Part shown: in pieces, positions 3,756 to 6,573 of the stretch
Numbering within the stretch: the stretch's first letter is position 1
Layout of the letters: each line of letters begins with the position of its first letter
NCBI GenBank assembly: GCA_016926475.1
Contig: JAFGON010000066.1
Coordinates: 1-6,624, forward strand
Origin: a candidate division WOR-3 bacterium
Lineage (GTDB): Bacteria; SDB-A
Length of the DNA stretch: 6,624 nt
Direction: 5' to 3'
Notes under the pieces: generated by a model
Database searches by the model: none
The model's input: the letters and a program-made list of their open reading frames with translations, nothing else
What the model was told of the DNA's origin: nothing
Position numbers and translations under genes: made by a program

Positions 3756-3764
3756 TGCTATAAT
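3756..3764 (+). promoter_or_regulatory. Extended -10 promoter element for the nifS-selD fusion
   Basis: TGCTATAAT is a perfect extended -10 (TGnTATAAT). No -35-like hexamer lies 16-18 bases upstream, which is usual for extended -10 promoters. Initiation about 7 bases downstream would place the 5' end near 3771, only some 8 bases before ATG 3779, so the transcript would be almost leaderless. This agrees with the missing Shine-Dalgarno sequence. Confidence 0.5.
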
Positions 3765-3778
3765 ATAAAGTTAATCCA

Positions 3779-5998
3779 ATGAAAATTTACCTTGACTACA
3801 ACGCGACAACGCCAATTGACCCGGAAGTCGCTGATTCAATGAAGCCTTATCTCTCAGAATATTTTGGAAACCCTTCGAGCTCTCACAGCTTCGGGACAAA
3901 GACAAAACTTGCTGTAGAAAAAGCTCGTAAACAGGTCGCTTCTCTCATACAATGCAAACCAAATGAAATAATATTCACCAGCGGAGGGACAGAATCGAAC
4001 AACTACGCTATAAAGGGCTATGCCTTTGCCAATATGAAAAGAGGCAATCACATAATCACTTCCGCAATAGAGCACCCCGCAGTATCAGAAGTCTGCAGAT
4101 ATCTTGAGGGAAAAGGTTTTCGCATAACATATATCGGTGTCGACGAGTTTGGCAGGATTGATTTAGACGAACTGGAAAACTCCATCGGGCCTGAAGCAAT
4201 TCTTATCTCCATCATGCACGCAAACAACGAAATCGGAACCATTCAGCCCATCAGCCAAATATCACAAATAGCAAAAAAAAATAATGTCGCGTTTCATACC
4301 GACGCGGCTCAATCTGTAGGAAAATACTCTGTAGATACCACCGAAATGGGTGTGGATCTATTGTCTATAGCCGGTCATAAACTTTACGCTCCGAAAGGAG
4401 TCGGCGCCCTTTATATCAGAGAGGGAATAACCCTCGAAAAACTAATACATGGAGCTGATCACGAACAAAACAAAAGAGCCGGGACCGAAAATGTCTTGGA
4501 AATAGTCGGGCTGGGAAAAGCCTGTGAAATCGCCCGGCGAGACATTGAAAAAAACATAATAAATATGACGAAAATGAGAGATATGCTGTACAGCAGACTG
4601 AAAGAAAAAATTCCCGATATAAAACTAAACGGGCACCCTGACTTTCGTCTTCCTAACACGCTAAACATCAGTTTTTATGGATTGGAAGCAAATGTCATCA
4701 TAAATGAACTGGAACTGAAAGGCATAGCCGCTTCTGCCGGAGCCGCCTGCCATACAGACTCAATAGAAATTTCTCCCGTTATCAAGGCAATCGGCTTAAA
4801 TCCTGACCTCGCGATGGGGACAGTTAGATTTTCCGTAGGAAAATTCACGACAAAAGATGAAATTGAAAGGTCTTCGCAGATAATAATCCAAACTGTGAAC
4901 AGTTTAAGGCCATACGGAAAAACCAATATCGAACAACCAGAAAATTCTGATGTAAAAATAAAACTCACGAAATACACGCAAGGATTGGGTTGCGCGTGTA
5001 AACTGAGGCCGCAGGAGTTGGAAAAGGTTCTGAAACTGATGCCAGTCACAACCGATCCCAATGTTTTGATAGATATAAAAACCTCTGACGACGCGGCTGT
5101 GTATAAGATAGACGAAAATACAGCCCTTGTGCAGACAGTAGACTTTTTCACACCTGTTGTGGACAACCCCTACGATTTCGGAGCTGTCGCAGCAGCTAAC
5201 GCTTTGAGCGATGTTTACGCGATGGGAGCAAAACCATTATTCGCTCTGAATATCGTTGGTTTCCCTTCCAACAGACTGCCTCTCACCGTTCTAAGCGAAA
5301 TTTTAAGAGGCGCTTCGGACAAAGCGAAACAAGCAAATATATCAATACTCGGAGGTCACACAATAGACGATTCAGAACCTAAATATGGAATGACCGTCTG
5401 CGGAATCGTCCACCCTCAAAAAATCTGGTCCAATTCGGGCGCCAAAGAAGGAGACGCCATAATACTGACAAAGCCTATTGGGACAGGAATTCTGACTACA
5501 GCTCTTAAAAAAGGTTTACTAAGCAAAAGGGCTGAAATCGATTTGATAAAATCTATGTCCGAACTAAACGACAAAGCCGCGAATGTTTTAAGTGATTTTT
5601 CTGTTCACGCCTGTACAGATGTTACCGGGTTTGGTCTTATAGGCCATCTCAGCGAGCTGACAACAGCAAGTGGCGTCGACGCTGAAATCTTTGCCGATAG
5701 TATTCCAGTTTTCGCCGAGACAAAAAACCTCGCCGCCGCGAATATCGTCCCCGGAGGATCAACAAATAACCTCAACCATTTTTCAAAGAAGGTAATATGG
5801 GGTGAAGATCTGTCCGAAATTACAAAAATAGTGTTGTGTGACGCTCAAACTTCAGGGGGCCTCCTGTTTGCTGTTCCAAAAAATGAATCTGGACAAATTA
5901 TCGATGATCTCAAAAAAGGCGGAATAAAAAGCGCGTCTCATATAGGAAATTGCTTGAAAAGAGGTAAGGGTTTGATTTTTGTCAAAAAATCAAAGTAA
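3779..5998 (+). CDS. selD: Fused cysteine desulfurase / selenocysteine lyase-like domain and selenophosphate synthetase (NifS-SelD)
   Basis: A 739-residue bifunctional protein, probably cytoplasmic. Residues 1-380 are a complete class V PLP-dependent NifS/IscS-type desulfurase: start MKIYLDYNATTPIDPEV, SGGTESNN (68-75), HANNEIGTIQP (147-157), HTDAAQSVGK (173-182), PLP lysine K201 in AGHKLYAPKG, RAGTEN (233-238), and catalytic Cys324 in SAGAACHTDS. After a short linker (about 381-392), residues 393-739 are a complete selenophosphate synthetase: catalytic Cys405 and Lys408 in GLGCACK, DDAAVY (437-442), VDFFTPVVDNPYDFG, metal-ligand aspartates equivalent to D478 (LSDVYAMG) and D614 (TDVTGFGLIGH), GGHTIDDSEP (525-534), and CDAQTSGGLL (687-696). 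SelD makes selenophosphate from ATP and selenide for selenocysteine tRNA or selenouridine synthesis. The fused desulfurase would supply selenium directly. The SelD nucleophile is Cys, not Sec. The start fits NifS N-termini, no internal SelD start exists, and there is no Shine-Dalgarno sequence. Confidence 0.95.
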   Translation: MKIYLDYNATTPIDPEVADSMKPYLSEYFGNPSSSHSFGTKTKLAVEKARKQVASLIQCKPNEIIFTSGGTESNNYAIKGYAFANMKRGNHIITSAIEHPAVSEVCRYLEGKGFRITYIGVDEFGRIDLDELENSIGPEAILISIMHANNEIGTIQPISQISQIAKKNNVAFHTDAAQSVGKYSVDTTEMGVDLLSIAGHKLYAPKGVGALYIREGITLEKLIHGADHEQNKRAGTENVLEIVGLGKACEIARRDIEKNIINMTKMRDMLYSRLKEKIPDIKLNGHPDFRLPNTLNISFYGLEANVIINELELKGIAASAGAACHTDSIEISPVIKAIGLNPDLAMGTVRFSVGKFTTKDEIERSSQIIIQTVNSLRPYGKTNIEQPENSDVKIKLTKYTQGLGCACKLRPQELEKVLKLMPVTTDPNVLIDIKTSDDAAVYKIDENTALVQTVDFFTPVVDNPYDFGAVAAANALSDVYAMGAKPLFALNIVGFPSNRLPLTVLSEILRGASDKAKQANISILGGHTIDDSEPKYGMTVCGIVHPQKIWSNSGAKEGDAIILTKPIGTGILTTALKKGLLSKRAEIDLIKSMSELNDKAANVLSDFSVHACTDVTGFGLIGHLSELTTASGVDAEIFADSIPVFAETKNLAAANIVPGGSTNNLNHFSKKVIWGEDLSEITKIVLCDAQTSGGLLFAVPKNESGQIIDDLKKGGIKSASHIGNCLKRGKGLIFVKKSK

Positions 5999-6195: not shown

Positions 6196-6573
6196 TTAAC
6201 TACTTTGAAATTCAGGAGCTAAACTCTTGGCAGCTTTTAGCATCTCATGTTTTATCAAACCAAGATTTCCGTCTTTCGTTACGATAACTGCCATGGCAGC
6301 CACGCCGGGAATTATGCAAGTGTGGATAAATATGTAGTTATCGGTTCGAACTTCCACGAAATTAGCCATTCCCAATCCCATTCTGTCTGTGATAATTTTT
6401 GACGCCCTGTAAAGCTCAACAGCCAAACCACCGATGTTGACATCAGCCGTTTCCTTTTTTGATTTAGATAAAAGTGTCTCACCAGATCCGAGGTAGATGT
6501 AGGTGGCTACAAATCCTGTAATACTCTCAAGATGATTTCAGACAGCTTCCAAAACAGCTTCGTTTAAAGCCAC
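6196..6573 (-). CDS. Roadblock/LC7 (MglB-like) small protein with in-frame TGA at codon 12
   Basis: From GTG 6573 the frame is 125 codons long and ends in TAA at 6196, with a single internal TGA (6540-6538, codon 12). It reads ALNEAVLEAV-TGA-NHLESITGFVATYIYLGSG, split here as NHLESITG and FVATYIYLGSG, then IGGLAVELYRASKI, MGLGMANFVEVRT, YIFIHTCIIPGVAAMAVIV and DGNLGLIKHEMLKAAKSLAP. This is the alpha-beta roadblock/LC7 fold of regulators of small Ras-like GTPases such as MglB. Residues on both sides of the TGA fit the first helix, and AAGGAGGTAACC gives a near-ideal ribosome binding site at GTG 6573, so the true gene includes the upstream part. A later start (TTG 6426) would lose the first helix and strand. 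Either TGA encodes selenocysteine, or the gene is newly inactivated, or the base is wrong. The nearby SelD gene makes the first option testable. No GTPase gene is in the window. Confidence 0.75.
6507..6521 (-). promoter_or_regulatory. SECIS-like hairpin downstream of the roadblock TGA (candidate)
   Basis: In the minus-strand RNA, UUACA-GGAUU-UGUAG forms a 5-bp stem (one U-G pair) with a 5-base loop beginning GG. The loop occupies nucleotides 22-26 after the UGA, inside the roughly 16-37 nt range of bacterial SECIS elements, and G at the loop start is a family feature. A weak lower stem is possible (GTA with TAC, GA with TC). The helix is short and AU-rich, so it may be coincidental. Confidence 0.25.

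Follow-up and report, generated by a model that had tools for sequence, protein, structure and literature searches.

A NifS-type cysteine desulfurase fused to selenophosphate synthetase in a WOR-3 bacterium, with relatives in at least eight phyla

Introduction

A 2026 review (PMC13188914) describes the in vivo delivery of selenium to selenophosphate synthetase (SelD) as incompletely understood. A fusion of a NifS-type desulfurase to SelD has been published for Geobacter sp. FRC-32, where the synthetase is of the selenocysteine form (PMC2398784), and the survey by Mariotti et al. (2015) described a second prokaryotic NifS–SelD together with NifS–SPS proteins in Acanthamoeba and Naegleria (PMC4561486). 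In T. brucei, Sec lyase and SPS form a complex both in vitro and in cells (PMC7595633), and loop-to-loop transfer of selenide between a separate lyase and SelD has been proposed earlier (PMC7595633, PMC3266270). With respect to specificity, human Sec lyase relies on Asp146, whereas other desulfurases have Lys or His at that position (PMC3266270).

Here we analyze a fusion encoded in a 6,624-bp stretch of DNA (the window), which is the complete contig C66 of a WOR-3 genome (G000; 2.15 Mb, 106 contigs). The initial annotation of this stretch had pointed to a NifS–SelD fusion in a Geobacter strain; this was correct, the strain being Geobacter sp. FRC-32.

Results and Discussion

Gene, domains and active sites

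The fusion occupies positions 3779–5998 of the forward strand as a single open reading frame with an ATG start, 739 amino acids and zero internal stops. The gene and its main parts are as follows.

3756–3764 (+): TGCTATAAT, an extended −10-like promoter match found by inspection (consensus match only), ending 14 nt before the fusion ATG
3779–5998 (+): NifS-type cysteine desulfurase/Cys-type SelD fusion, 739 aa
3785–4909 (+): desulfurase domain, aa 3–377; TIGR03402 (492 bits) and PF00266, with an NFS1/IscS-like fold (rmsd 1.9 Å)
4913–4951 (+): interdomain linker, aa 379–391; pLDDT <50, length similar across the family
4961–5887 (+): SelD domain, aa 395–703; TIGR00476, 397.5 bits

The NifS and SelD profile matches within one 739-residue frame bear out the initial claim that a desulfurase and SelD are joined in an uninterrupted polypeptide, and neither a stop nor a frameshift, either of which had been named as grounds for abandoning that claim, lies between the domains. 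The best match of residues 3–377 is TIGR03402 (NifS), at 492.1 bits; because this score falls under the curated cut-off of 530.75, the desulfurase half is by profile comparison a relative of NifS rather than NifS sensu stricto. Nor is the fusion a selenocysteine lyase of the SclA type, as profile NF040779 gives it 113.7 bits against a threshold of 525. The SelD half is covered over the full domain by TIGR00476, and its 394.6 bits are more than three times the cut-off of 125.

The linker, put at about a dozen residues in the initial annotation, has 13 (379–391). Among 24 aligned fusions its length is 13–16 residues in 23 and 46 in the remaining one, and its sequence is unconserved. The further claim that no internal start exists held in that the junction contains no ATG, but in-frame GTG (Val373) and TTG (Leu403) codons are present there. 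No ribosome-binding site was evident at either codon, and internal initiation at the junction appears unlikely rather than impossible. Upstream of the gene, TGCTATAAT has no −35 match and is hence unlisted by the promoter scan; its position suggests that the fusion transcript may be leaderless or carry a very short leader.

For the active sites, SelD residues were mapped by alignment to E. coli SelD (3u0o), with numbering counted by hand, and conservation was counted in the alignment of 24 fusions.

4073–4078 (+): His99-Pro100, the His that stacks on PLP followed by the residue that corresponds to Asp146 of human Sec lyase; both in 24/24 fusions
4379–4381 (+): Lys201, the PLP lysine (AGHK); invariant in 24 fusions
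4748–4753 (+): Cys324-His325 in the SAGAACHTD loop, with the (sulfo)selenide-forming Cys; invariant in 24 fusions, in a predicted mobile loop (pLDDT <50)
4991–5002 (+): Cys405-Ala-Cys407-Lys408, equivalent to E. coli SelD C17/C19/K20 by alignment to 3u0o and conservation
5087–5092 (+): Asp437-Asp438, with Asp438 equivalent to E. coli Asp51 (alignment to 3u0o)
5141–5143 (+): Asp455, equivalent to E. coli Asp68 (alignment to 3u0o)
5210–5212 (+): Asp478, equivalent to E. coli Asp91 (alignment to 3u0o)
5618–5620 (+): Asp614, equivalent to E. coli Asp227 (alignment to 3u0o)

The residues invariant in all 24 fusions comprise His99, Lys201, Cys324, Cys405, Lys408, Asp438, Asp455, Asp478 and Asp614, and every residue initially named as key to either domain is present and conserved. 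The SelD active-site codon (4991–4993) is TGC, encoding Cys and not selenocysteine. An AlphaFold2 model built from 24 sequences contains two confident domains (pLDDT 86), with low-confidence stretches at the Cys324 loop (322–329), the linker (379–391), the Cys405 loop (403–409) and residues 223–236; its pTM of 0.54 makes the relative placement of the domains unreliable. Foldseek matched the two halves to human NFS1/IscS (1.9 Å) and Aquifex SelD (about 2.2 Å), and among the best matches listed no chain spanned both halves.

Distribution and phylogeny

A search for the two-domain architecture across genomes recovered, after removal of duplicates, at least 35 other distinct fusions from at least eight phyla, all 52–70% identical and with the same layout. 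The scan of named genomes gave at least 23 further in-frame fusions, one of them lacking its N-terminus at a contig end, in hosts whose MAG labels read Bacteroidetes, Eisenbacteria, Zixibacteria, Calditrichaceae, Caldisericaceae, Chloroflexi, Phycisphaerales, Deltaproteobacteria and KSB1. The description of such fusions as rare did not survive this sampling: 12 of 385 other genomes carry one (13 of 386 with G000), and SelD itself was found in 173 of the 386, 13 of which, G000 counted, have the fusion.

In the SelD tree, the SelD halves of 36 deduplicated fusions form one group (SH-aLRT 92). All 36 are of the Cys type, with a GxGCACK motif at the SelD site, and the group has SelDs of the selenocysteine type (GUACK) close by in the tree, whereas E. 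coli-like Cys SelDs (GCGCK) are placed away from it. A TGA in the G004 fusion was considered as a selenocysteine site and rejected, as it is the terminal stop and the active site holds Cys. For the NifS halves, nearly all of which have an S-x-GAACH loop, monophyly is rejected (AU p 0.00014 under LG+G4, a simpler model), and with it a common origin of the entire fusion. In the NifS tree, fused and free-standing desulfurases are intermixed. Because the AU test rejects a single NifS clade, free-standing desulfurases have probably split off from fusions, or the NifS partner has been swapped.

Related arrangements were also encountered. One Bacteroidota genome (G075) carries two different NifS–SelD fusions (L049 and L141). 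Adjacent unfused genes occur as SelD(Sec)–NifS in a Firmicutes MAG (L095, 6001–8183), as NifS–SelD(Cys) in a Xanthobacteraceae MAG (L055, 3233–5401) and as SelD–NifS in a deltaproteobacterial MAG (L091).

Selenium pathways in fusion-carrying genomes

We searched 30 genomes (27 fusion carriers, 2 of the same genus without the fusion and 1 in which the two genes are adjacent but unfused) for SelD, MnmH, SelA, SelB and YqeB, with gene absences being provisional in genomes reached through loci, for which completeness is unreported. About ten Bacteroidota have mnmH (selenouridine), lack selA and encode no SelD other than the fusion. Genomes with mnmH, no selA and the fusion as sole SelD are G060, G061, G062, G065, G066, G073, G076, G078 and G080; G075, likewise mnmH-positive and selA-negative, has its two fusions and no other SelD, and G077, of the same mnmH and selA status, has an extra Cys SelD beside its fusion. 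That extra protein (L188, on contig C536 of this Bacteroidota genome) is of the Cys type (GGCSAKL) and divergent, with a long branch in the tree. The fusion is also the sole SelD in G070 and G083, which combine mnmH with selA/selB, and in G004 (59% complete) and G082, which have selA/selB. A further group (G000, G003, G047, G063, G064, G068, G069, G071, G074 and G079) has selA/selB, lacks mnmH and, in addition to the fusion, encodes a separate SelD whose reading frame contains a UGA. G072 has the fusion with selB and yqeB. No mnmH, selA, full-score selB or yqeB was found in G067, a Zixibacteria MAG (L041/L227), whose fusion may be an orphan SelD unless contigs are missing.

In terms of gene context, mnmH lies immediately upstream of the fusion, on the same strand and with gaps of at most 46 bp, at L040, L044, L052 and L058; other than mnmH, the immediate neighbors show no common theme. 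Because some genomes depend on selenophosphate and have only the fusion, the fusion would have to be active as a SelD there, which is the strongest functional evidence at hand. In the sample of 386 genomes, a second SelD is present in 10 of 13 fusion genomes versus 5 of 160 other SelD genomes (Fisher p 1.6e-10, kinship ignored).

Selenium or sulfur specificity

Catalytic Cys324 is followed by His, a feature shared with mammalian Sec lyases, in which changing this His had little effect (PMC3266270). At the position of human Asp146, all 24 fusions have Pro100 (an equivalence based on the alignment to NFS1 and on the EHD motif that a primer in PMC3266270 implies), so that the hallmark of human SCLY-type specificity is absent. 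Because Pro100 replaces Asp146, Cys is probably also a substrate, and the desulfurase domain is probably active toward Sec and Cys alike. Selectivity for selenium would then lie in the SelD domain or in substrate supply.

The initial annotation had further suggested that the SAGAACHTD loop may mark a selenium-dedicated group. The loop (SAGAACH[ST]D) is also found in many free-standing desulfurases, which do not adjoin selenium genes. SelD was found in 22 of 25 genomes with such relatives versus 173 of 386 in the background (p 1.8e-5), in a 25-genome sample that is taxonomically biased toward lineages generally using selenium. As proof of selenium dedication the loop was rejected, given the location of its free-standing carriers and the absence of the human selenium-specificity residue.

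The WOR-3 locus

The genes flanking the fusion (a C69 peptidase, a glyoxalase, two small ORFs and DUF6530) occur in the same order in the same-genus genome G001 (L179), where they are mostly 75–91% identical (64% for one small ORF), and the order is partly kept in G002 (L180), also of this genus. A chimeric contig is ruled out by this synteny. The fusion is missing from both of these sister species, with flanking synteny retained, and is thus dispensable in this genus. It groups with the Bacteroidota fusions L034, L035, L036 and L063 (98 and 99 in two analyses) and not with the fusion of the same-family genome G003 (61% identity). The gene was probably acquired horizontally, with its nearest kin in Bacteroidota; loss in the sister species instead of gain is possible.

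Two neighbors of the fusion are interrupted. The C69 dipeptidase gene (3–1583, +) is broken by one in-frame TAG at 792–794. This position is Tyr in the G002 ortholog (L180) and the G001, G002 and G003 orthologs are uninterrupted, on which grounds pyrrolysine was rejected; the TAG is, judging by these orthologs, a fresh nonsense mutation or an assembly error. A small roadblock-like ORF at about 6196–6573 (−), assigned to its family by inspection and giving no significant Pfam match, has a GTG start with a good ribosome-binding site and one in-frame TGA near codon 12.

Elsewhere in this genome, selC (tRNA-Sec), selA and selB are clustered on contig C90, and the genome search found no mnmH or yqeB. 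A selenophosphate-using pathway, the lack of which would have counted against the initial reading, is therefore present. Contig C89 (L183) holds a standard selenium operon with a second SelD.

C89, 169–3964: YedE-like transporter (by inspection), TIGR01977 EF2568/SclA-like desulfurase, PF11823 Se/S carrier and UGA-containing SelD

This second, selenocysteine-containing SelD was missed in the initial sequence-only reading. We infer that the fusion acts in this genome as a second, Sec-independent selenophosphate synthase feeding SelA/SelB, probably after horizontal acquisition.

Proposed mechanism and alternatives

Overall, the fusion is probably a bifunctional selenium-activating enzyme with tethered delivery from Cys324 to SelD, serving in the WOR-3 bacterium as a Sec-independent second synthase. 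This reading is based on the intact domains and catalytic residues, the single SelD origin, the SelD-dependent pathways and the frequent status of the fusion as sole SelD; mnmH directly upstream at four loci, the low pLDDT of precisely the Cys324 and Cys405 loops and the linker, and the T. brucei complex also speak for it. Specifically, the PLP desulfurase domain would take selenium from L-selenocysteine, or accept it onto a Cys324 persulfide, and the selenium adduct formed on Cys324 in its mobile loop would be handed across the flexible 13-residue linker to the SelD domain, whose mobile Cys405/Lys408 loop and Asp cluster would make selenophosphate from ATP. Tethering would keep reactive selenide local and limit its free form. 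Transfer from Cys324 to Cys405 would presumably occur by direct contact and with a preference for selenium, and the fused layout fits the loop-to-loop proposal made for separate proteins. Counted against this mechanism are Pro100 in place of Asp146, the unreliable interdomain placement in the model, the absence of the gene from both sister species and the NifS halves, whose failure to form one clade means that the two partners have come apart or been joined anew.

The tether might, however, provide no channel and serve only to fix stoichiometry and co-expression, with both domains working as usual and selenide either leaving the enzyme to be captured again or moving from one molecule to another. 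A flexible linker of unconserved sequence, 46 residues long in one fusion, is in keeping with this, as is the NifS tree, where the interleaving of free-standing and fused enzymes indicates that the desulfurase can do without attachment. Yet 23 of the 24 fusions, which come from several phyla, keep a linker of 13–16 residues, both catalytic loops are predicted to be mobile (low pLDDT), and a lyase–SPS complex exists in trypanosomes (PMC7595633); we regard a mere tether as doubtful, though deserving of real weight. Far less probable is a sulfur role, in which the desulfurase would use cysteine and the SelD domain would make a thiophosphate-like donor without involvement of selenium. Pro100 and Ala198 do replace the Asp and Val of the Sec-specific human lyase, and a sulfur role has been proposed for SelD-like proteins of archaea (PMC4210487), but every SelD catalytic residue is kept, the SelD half scores more than threefold above its curated cut-off, and the fusion both adjoins mnmH and is the sole SelD in mnmH-positive genomes.

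For the WOR-3 gene itself, the C89 operon with its YedE, SclA-like and Se-carrier genes and UGA-containing SelD could already supply selenophosphate, leaving the fusion as a recent, redundant passenger, a view that also accords with its absence from both sister species at otherwise syntenic loci and with its nearest kin being in Bacteroidota. We nonetheless consider this unlikely, as all 739 codons are intact although two neighboring genes carry nonsense codons, and coexistence with a second SelD recurs among fusion genomes at the frequency given above and is no one-off. An assembly or binning artifact, which the short contig and the in-frame stops in two of its other genes might suggest, is extremely improbable for this copy in light of the flanking genes shared in order, and mostly at 75–91% identity, with a same-genus genome; for the architecture it is already refuted by the at least 35 other distinct fusions. 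Turning back to the bifunctional enzyme, a more speculative proposal, which we put forward only tentatively, is that the Cys-type fusion serves, independently of Sec, as a starter or salvage synthase mining free selenocysteine. In genomes where the main SelD is a selenoprotein, whose own production requires selenophosphate, the fusion could restart selenocysteine synthesis after selenium starvation. Such a role, if true, would explain the excess of second SelDs in fusion genomes.

Comparison with known systems

The proteins described here share with those of FRC-32, the second prokaryotic case, Acanthamoeba and Naegleria an N-terminal NifS and a C-terminal SelD/SPS in one polypeptide. They differ from the FRC-32 protein, compared by its published description, in that all 36 have Cys (GxGCACK) where FRC-32 has selenocysteine at its SelD site. 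Ndh–SelD fusions (PMC2398784, PMC4561486) likewise place an enzyme N-terminal to SelD, usually of the Cys form, but the partner is an NADH dehydrogenase-like domain and no desulfurase is present. The same two activities reside in two polypeptides where IscS/NifS or Sec lyase and SelD are separate, as in E. coli and trypanosomes. Finally, operons of SclA/EF2568-type Sec lyase, Se/S carrier and Sec-SelD, such as that on C89, also pair a desulfurase-family protein with SelD; they differ in using another desulfurase subgroup, separate genes and selenocysteine in SelD.

The published NifS–SelD reports, in the portions accessible to us, cover few cases and mention neither a link to mnmH nor a second-SelD pattern; within the same bounds, we found no account of the breadth of the family, the common origin of its Cys SelD group, its operons with mnmH, the sole-SelD status or the recurrent pairing with Sec-SelD. 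A natural single-chain donor–acceptor enzyme that is widespread, and the sole SelD of some bacteria, offers a clean system for studying selenium delivery, in which the linker can be cut, either cysteine can be mutated and stoichiometry is fixed. In genomes, moreover, members of the family indicate that selenium is used, a marker that a "cysteine desulfurase" annotation can hide. A handful of genomes had already shown the NifS–SelD architecture; new are its extent, as a widespread and horizontally spread family, and its genomic setting.
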